Virus record (IMG/VR): IMGVR_UViG_3300005613_000253
Location: 1-32,607 of that record
Reading direction: 5' to 3' (one strand)
DNA length: 32,607 nucleotides
Source: a virus
A program made the position numbers and the translations under genes. Shown here piece after piece: positions 5,024 to 17,593 of the stretch (the stretch's first letter is position 1; each line of letters begins with the position of its first letter). The notes under the pieces were generated by a model. That model saw only the letters and a program-made list of their open reading frames with translations, ran no database searches and was not told where the DNA came from.

Positions 5024-5164
5024 ATGTTTGCAGAGTTTTGCACTATAATGAGTTGTGTTTGTTTTGCATGTATCCCGCTTTCGATTGCAGATGGTGAGTG
5101 TGTACCTGCGTTGACACTCGGCATAAATATGTTTACTTTTCATATATTGTCTAAGGTTAAATAA
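5024..5164 (+). CDS. Small cysteine-rich hydrophobic protein, 46 aa
   Basis: 46 aa, with five cysteines in the first 26 residues (FCTIMSCVCFACIP) and a hydrophobic second half. AGAGGTGAG lies upstream. It could be a membrane micro-protein. Its TAA shares one base with the methyltransferase ATG. Function unknown. Confidence 0.45.
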   Translation: MFAEFCTIMSCVCFACIPLSIADGECVPALTLGINMFTFHILSKVK

Positions 5165-6720
5165 TGCAACTGATTAAAGACTGTGATATAAACAAACTAA
5201 GACCGTGGGAAGGTAATCCGAGAAAGCACGATGATGACGTTGATATGCTCGTAGTAAGCATAACAGCGCACGGATTTAAAGACCCAATCGAGGTTGATAG
5301 AGATTACGTGATACTTGCCGGGCACGGCAGAACAGAAGCCGCGAAAAAGATGGGCTTACAAAGAGTTCCTGTAATTGTGCATGATGTAAGTGTGCGAGAT
5401 AAGAAAGTGCAAGCGTACGTTTTAGCTAATAACAAGACGGCAGAACGGAGTGAATGGGATTTCCCGAAGCTTAAAGACGTGTTTACTGAGATAGACACGG
5501 GAGAGTTTGCGCTTGAAATTACGGGTTTTGATATGGGGGAGATTGAGGATGTTATGACTTGGGGCGTTGAGCCAGAAGAAGACGAAAAAGCGGATAGCGT
5601 GCCGAGTGCACCGGCCGAAGCGGTTAGTAAGTTAGGTGAGATGTACCAACTTGGCGAGCATAGGCTTATTTGTGGCGATTGCACGCAGCCTGACGTGGTT
5701 GAAAAGCTGATGCAGGGTGAAAAGGCTGATATGGTGTTTACAGACCCGCCATATGGGATGAAGAAAGAAAAAGACGGAGTGTTAAACGATAATTTAAATC
5801 TTAAAGATTTGTTTGATTTTAATATGACGTGGATACCGCTTTCTTTCGGGTGTCTTAAGGATAATGGTTCTTGGTACTGTTGGGGTACAGACGAGCCTTT
5901 AATGGATATTTATTCAGGAATAATCAAGCCATATACAGCAGAACAAAAGGCAACATTTAGAAATTTAATAACTTGGGATAAAGGACATGGGCAAGGGCAA
6001 AATGCAGAAGGTTTTAGAATGTATCCAATAGCAGATGAAAAGTGCCTGTTTGTTATGTGTGGAGTTCAGGGCTTTAATAATAACGCAGATAACTACTTTC
6101 ACGGGTGGGATAATATTGTGAAGTATTTATCAGACGAAAAAGACAGGGCGGGGTTAACAATCAAGGAATGTAAAAGGATAGCAGGACACTCCGAAAATAG
6201 TGGTTGTCATTGGTTTGATAAAAGTCAGTGGAGTATGCCAACAAGAGAAGTCTATAACTCATGGCGTGAACATTGTGCAAAAAAGAATACCGATGCATTC
6301 AAAAAAGAATATGACGAAATTAAAAAAGAATATGACGAAATTAAAAAAGAATATGACGAAATTAAAAAAGAATACTATGCTACGCGAGCGTATTTTAACA
6401 ACACGCACGACAATATGAACAACGTTTGGCATTTTGCAAGACACGAGCGCACTGGCGTAGAAGGTGGACACGCAACACCGAAACCGATAGATTTATGCTC
6501 AAGAGGTATTTTATCAAGCTGCCCTGATGGTGGCATTACGGTGGATTTCTTTCTTGGCAGCGGCTCAACGTTAATCGCCTGCGAAAAGACAAAGCGCAAA
6601 TGCTACGGCGTAGAGCTTGAGCCTAAGCACTGCGATGTAATAAGGAAACGATGGGCTGAATATACACAAGGCGAAGGCGTTGATTGGCAACAGCTTACGC
6701 CGCAAGTGTTCAAATATTGA
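5164..6720 (+). CDS. ParB-domain / DNA adenine-or-cytosine-N4 methyltransferase fusion
   Basis: 518 aa. Residues 1 to about 130 form a ParB/Srx-like nuclease-fold domain (RPWEGNPRKH, then the GHGRTEAAKKMG segment). After a linker comes the methylase: DPPYG at 194-198 (motif IV) and DFFLGSGST at 461-469 (motif I, SAM binding). Motif IV before motif I is the beta-class order seen in N6-adenine and N4-cytosine methylases. This fusion is common in phages and is usually taken as a solitary methylase that shields phage DNA. An in-frame 21-bp repeat (6301-6374) adds three KKEYDEI copies from residue 380, in the variable part between the two motifs where target recognition usually lies. No restriction enzyme gene is adjacent. 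Confidence 0.9.
   Translation: MQLIKDCDINKLRPWEGNPRKHDDDVDMLVVSITAHGFKDPIEVDRDYVILAGHGRTEAAKKMGLQRVPVIVHDVSVRDKKVQAYVLANNKTAERSEWDFPKLKDVFTEIDTGEFALEITGFDMGEIEDVMTWGVEPEEDEKADSVPSAPAEAVSKLGEMYQLGEHRLICGDCTQPDVVEKLMQGEKADMVFTDPPYGMKKEKDGVLNDNLNLKDLFDFNMTWIPLSFGCLKDNGSWYCWGTDEPLMDIYSGIIKPYTAEQKATFRNLITWDKGHGQGQNAEGFRMYPIADEKCLFVMCGVQGFNNNADNYFHGWDNIVKYLSDEKDRAGLTIKECKRIAGHSENSGCHWFDKSQWSMPTREVYNSWREHCAKKNTDAFKKEYDEIKKEYDEIKKEYDEIKKEYYATRAYFNNTHDNMNNVWHFARHERTGVEGGHATPKPIDLCSRGILSSCPDGGITVDFFLGSGSTLIACEKTKRKCYGVELEPKHCDVIRKRWAEYTQGEGVDWQQLTPQVFKY
6301..6374 (+). repeat. 21-bp tandem repeat inside methyltransferase gene
   Basis: Three perfect 21-bp copies (6301-6321, 6322-6342, 6343-6363) are followed by 11 bases of a fourth. 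Each copy encodes KKEYDEI, so gain or loss of a unit keeps the reading frame. The repeat lies in the methylase region between motifs IV and I. Confidence 0.97.
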
Positions 6721-10566: not shown

Positions 10567-10590
10567 TAAGGTGTTTACATGAGGAAAAGT

Positions 10591-12069
10591 ATGGCAATAC
10601 AAAAGCCGGAAGCTCTTGAACAACATCTTAACCAATTAGAATTCTTGCAGTTAACGTACGTGGGTGGTTCGGACTACAAGTACGGTGTGGATGCAAACGG
10701 CAACAATGTTTTAATCAGACTAAAGCGAGAAAAAGCAAAATTATCCGTTCAAGGTAAAGATGACGATTATATAGACCGAAAGAAATTCTCTGTATATAAG
10801 CCTTATTATCGTTCGATTACTGACAAAATCGCAGGTTACATTGTTGGTGAACCTGTAACGCGTGATGCAAATATTCCAGAGGGTGCCTACGTAGCGGAAA
10901 CGATGAAAGAAGTTGTTAGCGATGGTTTGCCACTTGGCGAATATTGGGTTGGCGTTGATGCACCACAGATAGACACGCCGCCGGTCAGCAAGCTTCAAGA
11001 GATGGAGATGGCAACTACACCATATTTTACGATGGTATCACCTTTAAACGTTGTTGATTACGAGCATGACGAAAACGGGGAATTGTTAAGGTTCGCATAT
11101 TCAGAGACTTACAGTCGTAAACCTTCGATGTTTGAAAAAGAAGTTGTTTTTGTGCAGTACTGGGAATGGACGCAAACGGAAGTACGCGTTTATGAAGCTC
11201 AAGAAGGACAGCAGCCAGACGAAACACCTAAAGAAACCTATGTAAATTCTTTCGGCGTTGTGCCTTTTGCGCACTTCAATCCTTCAATTCCAGTTGATGA
11301 CATGGCTGAAATTGCTAAACATCTTTACAATTTAGGTTCTCTATACGATGAAGAAATCGTAAAAGCCGTATTTAGTGCATGGTTAATATCCGGTGTGCAT
11401 CAAGACGAGATATTGCAACGCAATCCCGAAACTGGCGAAGTCAACGGAGATCCGAAAGCTGGTTCAATGATATTTGCCGGCGACCAAAACGCGGCCGTTA
11501 ATTCCATATCAGGCCAGCCGGAAGTGCCGCAGAATATCTTAAACGCTATCTACGCAGACATTGATGAGCTTTATAGATTAGTTGGTTTGCAAAACACGTA
11601 TAAAAATCAGGTTGAGAGCGGAGAGGCAAAACGTCTTGACTTCCAAAACTTAAACGCATTGCTCGTGAGTATCGCTGAAGAAGCTCAACGTGTTGAGAAT
11701 TATCTCTTGCCATTAGTTGGAGATTTTGAAAAATCACAATGGCCTACAGAATTTGACGTTAAATCCTTTGCAGAAGACCTTGCGGAATATCTTGACGAAA
11801 TGAAGGTGCAGTATTTGCCGATATCGTACCGCAAAAAACGTGCTGCTGACATGATTAACAAACGAAATCAAGAGCAAGATAACACAGCATACGTTAACGA
11901 TATTGCAGAGGCTCCGCTACTTGATAAAGAAGCTCTTGCCGGTTACTTGATGATTGAAGGTAATCTTAAAGACGAGAAGAAAGCTGAAATTATCGGCGTA
12001 GGTAAAAAGAACTACAGGCCTGATGAGATAACTCCAGTTGACCTGACAGGAGATATGCTTGATGGCTAA
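10591..12069 (+). CDS. Phage portal protein
   Basis: 492 aa from ATG 10591 (GAGGAAAAG upstream). Portal signatures: N-terminal KPYYRSITDKIAGYIVGEPV, central domains with FGVVPFAHFNP, the crown-side helices LYNLGSLYDEEIVKAVFSAWLISG and IDELYRLVGLQ, then SGEAKRLDFQNLNALL. Resembles SPP1 gp6-type or DUF4055-type portals. It forms the dodecameric ring through which DNA enters the capsid. Its end overlaps the MuF start by 8 bases. An upstream ATG at 10579 would add four residues and fits the promoter less well. Confidence 0.9.
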   Translation: MAIQKPEALEQHLNQLEFLQLTYVGGSDYKYGVDANGNNVLIRLKREKAKLSVQGKDDDYIDRKKFSVYKPYYRSITDKIAGYIVGEPVTRDANIPEGAYVAETMKEVVSDGLPLGEYWVGVDAPQIDTPPVSKLQEMEMATTPYFTMVSPLNVVDYEHDENGELLRFAYSETYSRKPSMFEKEVVFVQYWEWTQTEVRVYEAQEGQQPDETPKETYVNSFGVVPFAHFNPSIPVDDMAEIAKHLYNLGSLYDEEIVKAVFSAWLISGVHQDEILQRNPETGEVNGDPKAGSMIFAGDQNAAVNSISGQPEVPQNILNAIYADIDELYRLVGLQNTYKNQVESGEAKRLDFQNLNALLVSIAEEAQRVENYLLPLVGDFEKSQWPTEFDVKSFAEDLAEYLDEMKVQYLPISYRKKRAADMINKRNQEQDNTAYVNDIAEAPLLDKEALAGYLMIEGNLKDEKKAEIIGVGKKNYRPDEITPVDLTGDMLDG

Positions 12070-13813
12070 ACGTGTTGCTACCGCTACAGAAAACGCCACA
12101 GATTACCCTATAAGTTTATTGCAGGGTGACTTGGCAGATGCATGGAAAGATACAGACAAGGCTGAAAAAAAGGCAGCTAAATATATTGCAGAGCAACACA
12201 AAAAAGCGTCCGAAAAAATAGTTAATCAATCAGTTGGCTTTGTTCAGCGCAACGGCACATATCAAGAAGCTAAAGCGGGCGGAAAACTAAATGCCTATTT
12301 TGATGCCGTCGATGATGAGCTGAAAAAAATGAGTGCTAAACAGATTTCGTATATAGATGAAGAAAGCCTTGCGGTTTTCAAGCGTGCTTACGTTGGTACA
12401 AGCGATGCATACGGCGAGGCATTTGGGGTGTCTCTGGGCAAAGTGTCAAAAAACACATTAGCAGCGTTTGACACTATGCCTGTGCTGGGTGCGTCTACTA
12501 AAGCTGAAACGATAAATCAATACTCACAGCTTGCGTCTCGTATACGCAAGGATATTGCGCAAAGCTTGCTACTTGGTGAAAGCCCATACAAGGCAGGGGA
12601 AAAGTTGAGCAGGTCTTTAGGCATTAGCCGTAATCACGCTGTAACATTGGCACGTACGAATATAGTAGCAGCTCATAATAGGTCTACGGAAGTGCTTGCA
12701 AGTAAAAATAAAGATTTATTTAGCGGAATGAGGTGGATAACCCAACTCGACGAAAGAACCTGTATCGTTTGTGGGCCTCGACACGGCAGAATATATCCAG
12801 TTGGTCAAGCCCCGTATCCTGCACATTTTAATTGCAGATGTGCGGTTAATCCTGTGCCTGCATACAGAATAAGACGCGGTCTCGAAGCTGAAAGCACGAA
12901 ACGGTATAATAAAGAGAAAAATGCGTGGATAAAAAACGGCGCAAAAGAAGATAAACGCAAAAACGACAACAGAATAAACAACCTGAAAAAACAACAATCA
13001 GACATTGAAAAACGCAATGTGAAAAATCAAAAACGCTTAGAGAAGATACAGGTCGAAAATGCTAAGCTTGCTAAAGAGATAGCCAAGACAGAACAAAAAA
13101 CCGTAAAATATGCACCAGTCACTGCGGATGGAGTTAGAACACTTAAGGGAGGCAAGCTGCAAACGACAAGCGAAACAAAAAAACAGATGGAAGAGATTGG
13201 TTTTGGCGGTTTTCGCATTAAAGGTTTTACGGATAAAGACGAGGCACTAAATCGTATAAATCTTGTCAAGCAAGATTGGACACGTGTTTTAAATGAAAAC
13301 CCAAGACTTCAAAAATCATTAAAAGGTAAGCAGTTTTGCAAATTATTTAATGTTGAAAATGTGGTAGGCACAGTCAACGATAGCGGCAAAAAGGTTGCTG
13401 GTATAGCAACAGATACCGGAAGAATTTCTGTTGCCGCAAAAAAACGACTAAAGAAATTAACAACAAGCAGTATTAACGTAGGCAAGGTCGGCAATGAGCT
13501 GGGAATTTCTGCAACAGACATGACGGGAACTGCCAGACACGAAATAGGACACATGTTGTCTCGTTCTACTTGGGTTCAAAAGGGTGGCGAAGTAGAGCTT
13601 GCTGGAGGCGTACGGGGTAAAGTGAAATCATGGAATGCAATAGCCGGAAATAAATCTGCAGGTTGGTGGAAAAGCAACGTCAGCGAATACGCTTCGACAA
13701 ACACGGCAGAGGCATTTGCTGAAAGCTTTTCGGTTTATACTGCACCGGGCGGCCGCGAGGTTTTGCCGACAGAATTACGTGTGTATTTTGATGCAGTCTT
13801 GAGGGGGAAATAA
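12062..13813 (+). CDS. MuF/SPP1 gp7-like head protein with C-terminal zinc-peptidase-like domain
   Basis: 583 aa. Residues about 140-270 form the phage Mu F domain, with ARTNIVAAHNR, DERTCIVCGPRHG (C234, C237) and AHFNCRC (H255, C258, C260). Next is a lysine-rich coiled coil (about 275-350). The last 230 residues are extra to the usual minor head protein and carry ARHEIGHML (HExxH, His493, Glu494, His497) and a downstream EAFAESFSVY (Glu550, Glu554), a minimal zincin layout. MuF proteins with C-terminal effector domains are known as phage polymorphic toxins, possibly injected with DNA. A structural maturation protease is the alternative. Confidence 0.85.
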   Translation: MAKRVATATENATDYPISLLQGDLADAWKDTDKAEKKAAKYIAEQHKKASEKIVNQSVGFVQRNGTYQEAKAGGKLNAYFDAVDDELKKMSAKQISYIDEESLAVFKRAYVGTSDAYGEAFGVSLGKVSKNTLAAFDTMPVLGASTKAETINQYSQLASRIRKDIAQSLLLGESPYKAGEKLSRSLGISRNHAVTLARTNIVAAHNRSTEVLASKNKDLFSGMRWITQLDERTCIVCGPRHGRIYPVGQAPYPAHFNCRCAVNPVPAYRIRRGLEAESTKRYNKEKNAWIKNGAKEDKRKNDNRINNLKKQQSDIEKRNVKNQKRLEKIQVENAKLAKEIAKTEQKTVKYAPVTADGVRTLKGGKLQTTSETKKQMEEIGFGGFRIKGFTDKDEALNRINLVKQDWTRVLNENPRLQKSLKGKQFCKLFNVENVVGTVNDSGKKVAGIATDTGRISVAAKKRLKKLTTSSINVGKVGNELGISATDMTGTARHEIGHMLSRSTWVQKGGEVELAGGVRGKVKSWNAIAGNKSAGWWKSNVSEYASTNTAEAFAESFSVYTAPGGREVLPTELRVYFDAVLRGK

Positions 13814-14010
13814 TGCTGTTGCCGTCAAACTGTAAAAAAAGAAACTGCATCCATTACGGTGGTGTTAGATGGTTAGGGGAAAGTGAAGCTACAGAGGTAT
13901 ATTACTGCGCTGCCTTTCCTAAGGGTATACCAGATGATATTAGTTCCGGCGATATTAAACACGTTAAGCCAATTGATGGTGATAACGGCATACAGTTTGA
14001 GGAAGCGTAA
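13813..14010 (+). CDS. Small conserved Cys protein after MuF, 65 aa
   Basis: 65 aa with C7, C12 and C32 and the string AAFPKGIPDDISSGDIKH then GDNGIQFEE. From memory, a widespread bacterial small-protein family shares C.AFP.GIP..I..G...H....GD.GI.FE; its function is unknown. It starts in a TAATG overlap with the MuF stop and ends in another with the next gene. Position makes it a possible partner of the MuF C-terminal domain, which is speculation. Confidence 0.6.
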   Translation: MLLPSNCKKRNCIHYGGVRWLGESEATEVYYCAAFPKGIPDDISSGDIKHVKPIDGDNGIQFEEA

Positions 14011-14492
14011 TGGCTATAGTATTCGATGCAACAGTAGCAGGCACGACAACAAACTCTTACGTCACGGTTGCCGTAGCTGATGACTATTTTGAAAGATACG
14101 TATATGCTACAGGACAAAAGCAATGGCCAAGCGGTTCAAGCACGGCCACGATTACGCTTAAAGAAAATTATCTGATGGCTGCCACAGCAAATATTGATAA
14201 AAATCTTTTCATTAGTGAAAAATATGACGAAGAGCAAGCGTTACAGTTTCCTCGATATATGCAAGAAGACATGACAGAAGATGTTGACGTAATACCCACA
14301 GATATAATTAATGCTACATTAGAAGAAGCGTTAGGAGTTATCAACGGTTGTGGTTCAACTGCTCAATGCGATGGAATAGTATCTCAAAGCATGGGCAGCA
14401 CTTCGGTGCAATATGGCTTTAAGCGACGTAAGACTATCTCCGCTAAAGCTTGGGAATATTTGAGAGATTGGTTACAAAGGAGAAATGATTAA
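14010..14492 (+). CDS. Head-tail connector, 'DnaT-like' family
   Basis: 160 aa. NSYVTVAVADDYFERY near the N-terminus, the EEQALQFPRYM segment and the IPTDIINATLEEA helix match the phage family often labelled 'DnaT-like ssDNA-binding', which structurally corresponds to head-tail adaptors (HK97 gp6-like). It sits between the MuF and scaffold genes, as adaptor genes often do. Starts in a TAATG overlap. Confidence 0.7.
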   Translation: MAIVFDATVAGTTTNSYVTVAVADDYFERYVYATGQKQWPSGSSTATITLKENYLMAATANIDKNLFISEKYDEEQALQFPRYMQEDMTEDVDVIPTDIINATLEEALGVINGCGSTAQCDGIVSQSMGSTSVQYGFKRRKTISAKAWEYLRDWLQRRND

Positions 14493-14542
14493 CGTTGCAG
14501 GGCGTTAGTCTTAAAAGTTGTACTTTTTATAAGGGAAATGAA

Positions 14543-15310
14543 ATGAGTGATGAAGTTCATCAAGACAATGTCAGTGACAGTAACACGCCTTCGGTTGAAG
14601 AACTGCAGGCAAAAGTGGCAAGCTTAGAAAAAGCGGCTAACGATTACAAAGGCGATATGTTTAAATACAAAGAGCAATCTAAAACCGCCTCTGAACAGTT
14701 GGAGAGCTTACAAGCTAAGATGCCAAACGATGACGAGTTGAAAGCTTTAAGAGAATTCCAGGAAGCGCAGAAACAGAAGCTTGAAGAAGAGGCCAAATTG
14801 TCAGTTGATAAAATGGAAAAGCTCAAGAAAGCCGAAATGAAAGCCCTTGCTGAAAAACTCGAGAGCGAAAAATCCGCATTGGCGGAAAAAGTAAGCAAGC
14901 AAGAACAAGTACTACGTGATTTAACAGTAAACGCACAAATCACAAACGCGGCGGCTGAAGCCGGTGCAGTTAAGCCAGAGCAATTAGTAGCTTTGTTGGG
15001 TTCGCAATTTGACGTTGTGGACGACAATGGCAAAATGATTGTTGTTGCGCTTGATGAAACAGGCGAGCCAAGACGTGGTGAAGAAGGTGTATTAACTGCC
15101 AAAAACGTAGTCACTAATTTTTTAAATGATAACCCGCATTTTCTAAAACCTTCTCACGTTGTGAGCGGCACGGGGGGCACGGGTTCAGTGACACAAACAC
15201 AACAGCCAACGTTAACGGCAAACGAAGCTTTACAGCTTGTAAGGTCTGGCAAAATGACCAAGCAAGAGGCAAACTCGATGCTTAGAGTTGGCAAAGCAAT
15301 AAAGGAATAA
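14543..15310 (+). CDS. Scaffold protein
   Basis: 255 aa from ATG 14543 (AAGGGAAATGA upstream); the frame is open from 14495 but has no ATG there. Very acidic and helical: coiled coil from about residue 20 to 130 (ELQAKVASLEKAA..., EKLKKAEMKALAEKLE...), a QITNAAAEAGAVKPEQLVALL segment, and a small C-terminal helical end (ANEALQLVRSGKMTKQEANSML). This is the usual design of scaffolds directly before the major capsid gene, whose C-terminal part binds the shell. Confidence 0.85.
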   Translation: MSDEVHQDNVSDSNTPSVEELQAKVASLEKAANDYKGDMFKYKEQSKTASEQLESLQAKMPNDDELKALREFQEAQKQKLEEEAKLSVDKMEKLKKAEMKALAEKLESEKSALAEKVSKQEQVLRDLTVNAQITNAAAEAGAVKPEQLVALLGSQFDVVDDNGKMIVVALDETGEPRRGEEGVLTAKNVVTNFLNDNPHFLKPSHVVSGTGGTGSVTQTQQPTLTANEALQLVRSGKMTKQEANSMLRVGKAIKE

Positions 15311-15314
15311 CAAA

Positions 15315-16439
15315 ATGAAATACAGTTACGATTACGATGTAAAACGTGACGTGAGCGAAATGTTCGAATTTCGCAGACAGACAGCCGCTCTTTTAATTGG
15401 AATGCTTGGACTTGCAGATGCAGGTACAGCAATTAAACATGAGTGGAAAGAGTTCAGCACAACTGCCAAAACTGGTGCGATTAGCGCGGCAGCAATGACC
15501 GCAGGTCTTACAACTCTTACACCTACTACGGCGAGTTTCTCAACACTCGCAGTTGGGCAAATTTTAGCTTTCCAGAATGCGGCAGGCGTAACCTATTCGG
15601 AACGTATGAGAGTTACAGCAGTTGCAACAGCAACCGCAACTGTTGAGCGTGGATTTGGTTCCACGACTGGCGGATCTATTAGTGCAAGTGCAGTTTTCAG
15701 AGTTATCTCTGTTGCTAAAGACGAAGGCACTTCGGCAGGCGATGACACCACATCAATACCGACAACTGCTTATAACGCGATGCAGATTTTTGCTAAGACC
15801 GGTAAAGTTACCGGCACTTCACAGGCCGTTGGAAAATACGGTGTGCCCGATGCAATCGGCTTTGCGGAAGAACAGCTTGCAGACCAGTTACTACGCGAAA
15901 TGAATATGTCAGTAATTTGGGGTATTTATCAGCTTAGAACAAGTTCCGTCAAAGGTACAATGGGCGGCTTGATGGAATACATCTCGACTAACGCAACATC
16001 TGCCGGAACTGCTCTGACTTCAACAATTCTTAATAACTCGATTGAAGATATCGTTGAAAAAGGTGGCGCGCCGCAGACAATTATTTGTCATCCTTCGGAA
16101 GCTCGTATCATCTCTGGTTGGAATACAAGCAACACACGTTATCAGCAGACAGACCGCGTCGCAGGTGGATACGTATCCCAGTTCGAAAGCGATTTAGGTA
16201 TCATGTCAAATCTTGGCATTCTGAACCTCGTAGCAGATTTCAACATGCCGAAAGACCAGTTGTTTATCGTTGACATTAACAACATCAAGCTCGTGCCTAT
16301 GGTCGGCCGTGCAATGATGTCAATGGACGCGACACAGCCCGGTGACGATGCTAAATCTCGTAGACTTCTCGGTGAATACTCACTCGAAGTTAAAAACGAA
16401 AGCACAGATGCAGCAATCATCACAGCATTGACAGTTTAA
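15315..16439 (+). CDS. Major capsid protein, DUF5309 / SU10-type
   Basis: 374 aa. The GKVTGTSQAVGKYGVPDAIGFAEEQ region is the signature of the DUF5309 major capsid family (HK97 fold). Residues about 55-140 form a beta-rich inserted segment (FSTLAVGQILAF...RMRVTAV...VERGFG) common in that family. The end VKNESTDAAIITAL matches typical capsid C-termini. It follows the scaffold by four bases and is followed by a strong hairpin, as expected for the most abundant late protein. Confidence 0.9.
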   Translation: MKYSYDYDVKRDVSEMFEFRRQTAALLIGMLGLADAGTAIKHEWKEFSTTAKTGAISAAAMTAGLTTLTPTTASFSTLAVGQILAFQNAAGVTYSERMRVTAVATATATVERGFGSTTGGSISASAVFRVISVAKDEGTSAGDDTTSIPTTAYNAMQIFAKTGKVTGTSQAVGKYGVPDAIGFAEEQLADQLLREMNMSVIWGIYQLRTSSVKGTMGGLMEYISTNATSAGTALTSTILNNSIEDIVEKGGAPQTIICHPSEARIISGWNTSNTRYQQTDRVAGGYVSQFESDLGIMSNLGILNLVADFNMPKDQLFIVDINNIKLVPMVGRAMMSMDATQPGDDAKSRRLLGEYSLEVKNESTDAAIITALTV

Positions 16440-16495: not shown

Positions 16496-17593
16496 ATGAC
16501 AGATATGCTTACGAGACAGGTGAAAATTGAAAAAGCAATTGACGCGATGAACAAGATTCGTACGTCCTCTTGTCACTTGAAAGACGCTGGCGTGTGCCCG
16601 CAAGGATACGACAGGCCCTGCGGCAAGCAGGTAGGTATTGAGTACGTAAAATTAAACGAAGATAAGCAGACTGGCAAGATTATGACGGTTCGCAACTGGA
16701 CGCAGACAGGTTCAGACAACGAGCCTCATTGCTGGGGTCGGTTACGTTCAGCGCACGAGCATATTTGGGAAGCTAATTTTGAGGCGAATGAACCGCGTAT
16801 TAAAAAGATGTTTCCAAAAGGCAGACCTGATGATGATGCCCCTAAGTTTGGGCAAACAGGATATTTGCTTGGTAATGGTCCCGGACTAAAAGTTAACGGC
16901 GATTTGTTGAAAGACGTTAAGGGTGATATCTGGGGTTGTAACCGTCACGGAGATTTAGACGTAGCTTTAGATTATTACATGGTGTTGGATGCACGTTGTA
17001 AAGACTACGAAGAAAGCATCAAAAAGATTAACAAAGACGTAACTCCTATTTTTAGTGTGTTTGCAAATCCTGAAGTAACCAAACATTTCAACACTAACAA
17101 TGCCTTGTGGTACAACGTTTGGGGTGCAGGTTCTAAACTCCACAAACGCACCCGTAAGTTTGCCAACAAGAAATTCAAGGCTGATGATTTCTCTAAACTC
17201 GATAGCGGCTTTAACGTTTGTTATTCGATGCTACATGCAATGTATAAAATGGGATATGAAAAGATCGTCATACTCGGCATGGATTATGCCTTTTCTGGTG
17301 GTTACGAATATTTCAACTCGGCAGATGATGACCGCTTTATTTTTCAAGACAAAGAAAAAGGCTTTGTGATACGTCAAGACATTCAAGAAAAATACAACAA
17401 GATGGGCGGTTTATTTCAAGCTCGCGACGCTTGGGGTAACGTTACTTTTACATGTCAGCCGATGCAGATGGCGGCCGTAATGATGAAAACCGCTGCGTAT
17501 TGGCTTAAAGATAAAATTGAATTGGTAAATTGTACGGAGGCGGGTTTAGACATAGGCATTAAAAATGACAAGCTCGAACATCACTTATGTTGA
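16496..17593 (+). CDS. DUF115 / Maf-like glycosyltransferase-family protein
   Basis: 365 aa. LLGNGPGLKVNG (124-135), WGCNRHGD (146-153), YYMVLDA (160-166) and the MGYEKIVILGMDYAF end of the central segment (to 266) match the DUF115 / MptE-like domain, also present in flagellin-modifying Maf proteins. The first 85 residues add four cysteines (C26, C34, C42, C79) and look like a separate small metal-binding region. AAAAGGA precedes the start. DUF115 proteins include pyrophosphokinases and putative sialic-acid-type transferases; activity here is unknown. It opens a cassette between capsid and neck genes, so virion or host-surface glycan modification is possible. Confidence 0.65.
   Translation: MTDMLTRQVKIEKAIDAMNKIRTSSCHLKDAGVCPQGYDRPCGKQVGIEYVKLNEDKQTGKIMTVRNWTQTGSDNEPHCWGRLRSAHEHIWEANFEANEPRIKKMFPKGRPDDDAPKFGQTGYLLGNGPGLKVNGDLLKDVKGDIWGCNRHGDLDVALDYYMVLDARCKDYEESIKKINKDVTPIFSVFANPEVTKHFNTNNALWYNVWGAGSKLHKRTRKFANKKFKADDFSKLDSGFNVCYSMLHAMYKMGYEKIVILGMDYAFSGGYEYFNSADDDRFIFQDKEKGFVIRQDIQEKYNKMGGLFQARDAWGNVTFTCQPMQMAAVMMKTAAYWLKDKIELVNCTEAGLDIGIKNDKLEHHLC

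Follow-up and report, generated by a model that had tools for sequence, protein, structure and literature searches.

The DNA analysed here, referred to below as the window, is a viral contig of 32,607 bases that possibly represents a partial genome. Its head module follows the order terminase, portal, MuF-zincin protein, a 65-amino acid ORF, adaptor, scaffold and SU10-like capsid protein. The MuF-zincin gene (12062–13813, plus strand), delineated by ORF, Pfam and PHROG analysis, encodes a minor head protein of 583 amino acids with a C-terminal zincin; its reading frame is open throughout, from the ATG at 12062 to the stop codon at 13811–13813, and AGGAG precedes the ATG by about 9 nt. Its start overlaps by eight bases the end of the portal gene lying immediately 5′ (10579–12069; PHROG 145, 4.7e-38). 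On the 3′ side follow genes for a 65-residue Cys-rich protein (13813–14010), called the companion below, a head-tail adaptor Ad1-like protein (14010–14492; PHROG 477, 1e-16), a scaffolding protein (14495–15310; PHROG 206, 7e-20) and the SU10-like major capsid protein (15315–16439; Pfam PF17236, 9e-49), all on the plus strand. A search of viral contigs with the window capsid protein returned no close relative. Immediately 3′ of the major capsid gene, an MptE-like protein is encoded at 16496–17590 (PF01973, 7.6e-10, above the cut-off), an unexpected location within a head module, and positions 5164–6717 hold a DNA methyltransferase fused to a ParB-like N-terminal domain (PHROG 498, 1e-103, together with many ParB-like families).

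The sequence-only reading had described the 583-residue protein as a MuF head protein, and this assignment is borne out by a Phage_Mu_F domain at residues 160–262 (12539–12847; PF04233, 6.6e-8), which scores 33.7 bits against a Pfam cut-off of 29.6. The protein also matches several PHROG minor-head families, including the PHROG 115 minor head protein (6e-33). The residue positions given in that reading are correct, namely the cysteines at 234, 237, 258 and 260, which belong to the Phage_Mu_F domain, the HEIGH motif at 493–497 and the EAFAESF stretch at 550–556. A coiled-coil linker joins the Phage_Mu_F domain to the zinc-peptidase domain, which spans residues 357–583 (13130–13810) as delimited by alignment, an AlphaFold model and VIA structure comparison.

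The peptidase domain carries what appears, by homology, to be a complete zincin active site, made up of H493, E494, H497, Y543 and E550. In a 12-sequence alignment, in which identity to the window ranges from 19% to 29%, the R-H-E-x-G-H motif, a Tyr and a Glu seven residues further on are invariant. The HEIGH motif (13538–13552) would provide two zinc-binding histidines and the general-base Glu, and the segment from Y543, at the position of the catalytic Tyr, to E550, the predicted third zinc ligand (13688–13711), reproduces the spacing of seven that is shared by Pro-Pro endopeptidase 3 (PPEP-3) and the lethal-factor enzyme. PPEP-3 binds zinc through His153, His157 and Glu197 and uses Glu154 as its base; its oxyanion tyrosine, Tyr190, lies seven residues before Glu197 (PMC12828418). 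The third ligand had been left between two glutamates; homology favors E550, and not E554, which is nearly but incompletely conserved and is replaced by V in one relative (L011). Loss of the HExxH motif among homologues was also looked for, and the motif was retained in 12 divergent sequences. A profile derived from the alignment picks out well over 100 domains from viral contigs; HExxH is present in 126 of 130 such domains and a later Y-x6-E in 118 of those 126, the profile having been trained on part of the 130-domain set on which it was scored. Taken at the level of sequence, these results confirm that the peptidase domain is real and beyond chance.

Structure prediction and fold comparison point in the same direction. 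The AlphaFold model of residues 357–583 has a pTM of 0.76 and a mean pLDDT of 69, with values of 87–90 for the helices carrying the Tyr and the Glu ligand. Compared by VIA, the model aligns with the lethal-factor catalytic domain over 186 residues (Z 13.0) and with PPEP-1 over 157 residues (Z 11.7, rmsd 2.9), and its best Foldseek match has an E value of 2.4e-3 at a probability of 1.00. As a whole-domain comparison, the predicted zincin can thus be superposed on solved M34-type peptidases from end to end, and the active site falls within the aligned region. Searched against solved structures by sequence alone, the alignment profile found the lethal-factor catalytic domain and gave a weak match to PPEP-1. 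The alignment, the model and the fold search together support the earlier suggestion of a zincin-type C-terminal domain with a full set of ligands. Pfam ATLF remains below its cut-off of 27.4, both for the full protein (17.1 bits) and for the domain alone (17.9 bits), and the domain is therefore termed M34-like rather than filed as a member of that family. Sequence and model lead us to predict that the C-terminal domain is an M34-like zinc endopeptidase.

The domain is widespread and occurs on several kinds of carrier protein. Scanning viral contigs with the C-terminal part first yielded two relatives, an alignment of which led to twelve loci, and a second scan gave 57 loci. Altogether, zincin domains were found in about 60 loci of uncultivated phages, mostly on MuF proteins and also on portals and polyvalent-type proteins. 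Among 116 zincin ORFs, a set that includes some near-identical contigs, 79 have a MuF domain and 3 a portal domain; of the rest, 15 are truncated or short and 19 belong to other kinds, among them polyvalent-type proteins. In two loci, L015 and L016, the zincin is fused to the portal, and the MuF gene is separate and lacks a zincin. One chain, encoded by a single ORF of 1379 amino acids (L029:3473-7612), combines a MuF domain with three zincins and an ART-like end. Its domains are separated by repeated GSGNFGHAGRPGAVGGSGGG linkers, and the companion protein of L015 ends in the same linker type. We considered GHAGRPG-type linkers as a common release site and rejected the idea, as the motif was matched in 7 of the 116 zincin ORFs and the window protein has no such motif. 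In another MuF-zincin gene (L006:1766-4573), an intein interrupts the MuF domain just before its Cys-rich end.

The two halves of the window protein have different nearest relatives, those of the MuF half being phiH1, PaMx74 and a set of other contigs and those of the zincin half L097, L017 and L019, and the peptidase module therefore appears to have been shuffled. Comparison of C-termini, made with domain swapping in mind, revealed that they vary among related MuF proteins: the MuF-type proteins of PaMx74, Javan311, Bacillus KLEB27-1 and Vibrio 1.284.A are short and lack HExxH, and the phiH1 relative has a long extension annotated as an XopAI-type effector. In BFVD, a structure search retrieved predicted minor capsid proteins whose C-terminal fold matches, e.g. 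A0A8S5NZA9 and A0A8S5QA17, with an identity to the window C-terminus of only about 18% over the match. No zincin homologue was confirmed in genome contigs, nor in GenBank phages searched by sequence with the window zincin domain. The profile recognised the zincin in two cultivated phages, Flavobacterium phage lotta8 (gp028, L063:3416-4966) and Brevibacillus phage Jenst (JENST_116, L064:3570-4691), where it is unannotated and a companion gene lies near it.

Given a MuF domain, a zincin fold with its active-site residues, conservation, modular swapping and a head-module gene order, we consider it probable that the gene encodes a MuF minor head protein with a swappable M34-like effector peptidase that is delivered at infection and cleaves one or more host proteins. 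The MuF part would place a few copies of the protein inside the head, next to the portal, and at infection the peptidase would enter the host with the DNA, either attached or cut free, and would cleave one or a few host proteins in favor of the phage. The virion location, delivery, catalysis and host target are inferences from this architecture. Because the window zincin closes the chain, it most likely attacks a host protein once delivered, and effector-like mobility is further supported by its attachment to MuF, portal, other or short proteins and by its position beside an ART-like end in L029. The placement among MuF effector proteins made in the sequence-only reading agrees with the MuF domain, the C-terminal domain of enzymatic type and the swapped C-termini. 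Several observations count against an effector. In L015 the zincin sits on the portal; the portal stays in the capsid, and this zincin could therefore be delivered only after cleavage, so that self-release is a possible intermediate step that would be needed for portal fusions. In addition, MuF toxins have been reported only from temperate phages (PMC5576092), and the 32.6-kb record, which may be a fragment, yielded no convincing lysogeny gene; a 294-amino acid ORF at 1132–2013 contains only a 47-amino acid Recombinase stretch (PF07508) and may not be an integrase. A companion family that is not toxin-specific and the mean pLDDT of only 69 for the zincin model weigh on the same side.

The start codon of the companion, the gene directly 3′ of the zincin, overlaps the zincin stop codon and is preceded by its own GAGGGGG ribosome-binding sequence. 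The encoded protein, with C7, C12, C32 and H50, belongs to no family of Pfam or NCBIfam, and its single weak match, PHROG 33375, is of unknown function. In the widest alignment C12, C32, A34, I39, I43 and H50 are invariant, and identity to the window is 32–58%, compared with 19–29% for the zincin domain, so that the companion is the more conserved of the two. The companion model (pLDDT 87.6) matched no PDB entry in a fold search, which does not imply a new fold.

Companion relatives adjoin the zincin in 52 of 61 loci, a set containing some near-duplicates and in which at least two of the nine loci without a companion are truncated at that place; in 45 loci the companion starts between −37 and +128 nt from the stop of the zincin ORF. 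Where zincin and MuF are separate, as in L015, the companion follows the zincin-bearing gene and not MuF. It lies 3′ of the zincin in lotta8 and two genes on in Jenst, both phages having been picked solely for their companion. Such linkage is what would be expected of a strict toxin-immunity pair, in which the zincin is a bacterial toxin and the 65-residue product a dedicated inhibitor protecting the producing cell. This explanation is compatible with a delivered effector and adds a claim about the companion, one that we regard as rather doubtful in view of the reverse search. When the companion was used as the query against viral contigs, at least 399 relatives turned up, and among the best 80, which were examined, a zincin is adjacent in about 50 of 77. 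The loci without it have MuF or portal genes with ADP-ribosyltransferase (ART), endonuclease-like, intein or unassigned regions.

The association differs between two companion subtypes, distinguished by their N-terminal Cys motif. The window companion is of the C-x4-C subtype, which has an adjacent zincin in 21 of 22 loci, the only exception (L146) lying at a contig end with only about 350 nt upstream, whereas in the C-x2-C subtype a zincin is adjacent in 33 of 60 loci and absent from the other 27 (Fisher p 4e-4, for sequences that are related and non-independent). A nearest-neighbour comparison of companion sequence with the zincin label, restricted to full-length hits, gave the same label in 26 of 29 cases, a value reached in 48 of 5000 shuffles, and the link is only suggestive. 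The C-x4-C counts favor a dedicated inhibitor; the C-x2-C loci without a zincin argue against it, as does the stronger conservation of the companion relative to the putative toxin domain, which is unusual for a toxin-specific inhibitor. The companion family also follows ART and other effectors and is therefore not simply a peptidase-specific immunity gene; a strictly zincin-specific role, strong at the 52 of 61 loci, is weakened by the ART and other C-termini of the reverse search. As judged from sequence and gene order, the companion is tied to virion effectors in general and one subtype to zincins, and it may have an inhibitory or a loading role. We tentatively suggest that the 65-residue Cys-rich family might be a general companion of virion-carried effectors, acting as inhibitor, chaperone or loading factor, where the C-x4-C subtype would silence the zincin until ejection and the C-x2-C subtype would serve zincins, ADP-ribosyltransferases and other MuF or portal effectors.

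Companion-family genes are not confined to phage loci with a recognised zincin. In three plasmid or chromosome records the companion is present and no zincin was recognised; two of the genes lie on small plasmids, pGP6 of the archaeon Methanothrix soehngenii (L065:5423-5668) and pDMC2 of the bacterium Solidesulfovibrio magneticus (L066:1508-1714), with no zincin recognised near either. Inteins were seen in 3 of 26 other head genes located 5′ of a companion.

An unlikely alternative is that the zincin is a self-processing enzyme, cutting its own head protein or packaged neighbours in the prohead or at ejection and sparing host proteins. Autoproteolysis has been proposed for the zincins of polyvalent proteins, with the processing of P1 DdrB cited (Iyer et al. 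2017, PMC5512222). The portal-zincin fusions of L015 and L016, which could not be injected whole, and the single chain of L029, with its three zincins, MuF domain and ART-like end, would be in keeping with such an activity. In the window and in many relatives, however, the zincin is the last domain and nothing lies behind it to be released; self-cleavage would free only the zincin itself, which suits an effector equally well. A role in head maturation, with the zincin processing the scaffold or capsid protein of the window phage, is most improbable: no prohead protease was recognised between the window terminase and capsid genes and the scaffold gene is adjacent, but several relatives (L005, L009, L012 and L015) carry a separate maturation protease or protease-like protein besides the zincin, Bacillus KLEB27-1 and Vibrio 1.284.A, whose capsid proteins are the most similar, build heads without the module (with a scaffold and a coil protein, respectively, encoded 5′ of the capsid gene), and fusion to many carriers with repeated domains per protein is ill-suited to an assembly enzyme. 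Scaffolds that function without proteolysis are normal, SPP1 and P22 being examples. Judged from the relatives and the similar-capsid phages, maturation is thus rejected as the main reading.

A peptidase delivered with the DNA and acting on host proteins, our preferred reading, can be compared with three known systems. The lethal-factor catalytic domain and PPEP-1/PPEP-3 resemble the window domain in fold, HExxH motif, third Glu ligand and the Tyr at −7. The window domain differs in being only 12–15% identical to these enzymes, in scoring under the ATLF cut-off and in riding on a phage head protein without secretion or cell-entry parts. A lethal-factor-like metallopeptidase has been described among polymorphic toxins, not on MuF (Zhang et al. 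2012, PMC3482391). With polyvalent proteins, the window protein shares a zincin on a phage head-associated protein expected to enter the host. Zincins occur in that class more often than any other domain, and self-processing, in-host activation and attack on host proteins have all been considered there (Iyer et al. 2017, PMC5512222). Polyvalent proteins have at least two effector domains per chain, whereas by Pfam and PHROG the window chain falls short of that number, having a MuF domain and one zincin only; its relative in L029 is truly multi-domain.

A further parallel is with MuF polymorphic toxins, with which the window shares the MuF domain, a C-terminal extension of enzymatic type and a small ORF directly 3′ (PMC5576092). 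Their C-terminal domains are treated as effectors expected to travel with the DNA, and a metallopeptidase domain was found in 20% of 191 MuF toxins (Jamet et al. 2017, PMC5576092). MuF-metallopeptidase fusions are thus already described as a class. The present data confirm that a single M34-like peptidase module is widely joined to MuF and portal proteins among uncultivated phages, and they supply a clear signature for finding further modules of this kind. The companion gene is the new and less expected part. A toxin-specific immunity role had been proposed, from size and position, for small ORFs that follow MuF toxin genes (PMC5576092), whereas the small downstream protein of the window belongs to one family common to zincin, ART and other carriers. 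It therefore bears on the question of whether the small genes behind MuF effectors are toxin-specific immunity genes or a shared accessory of virion effectors. If the family does serve virion-carried effectors in general, a single shared companion would take the place of the immunity proteins, each specific to its toxin, that are at present assumed for MuF toxins.
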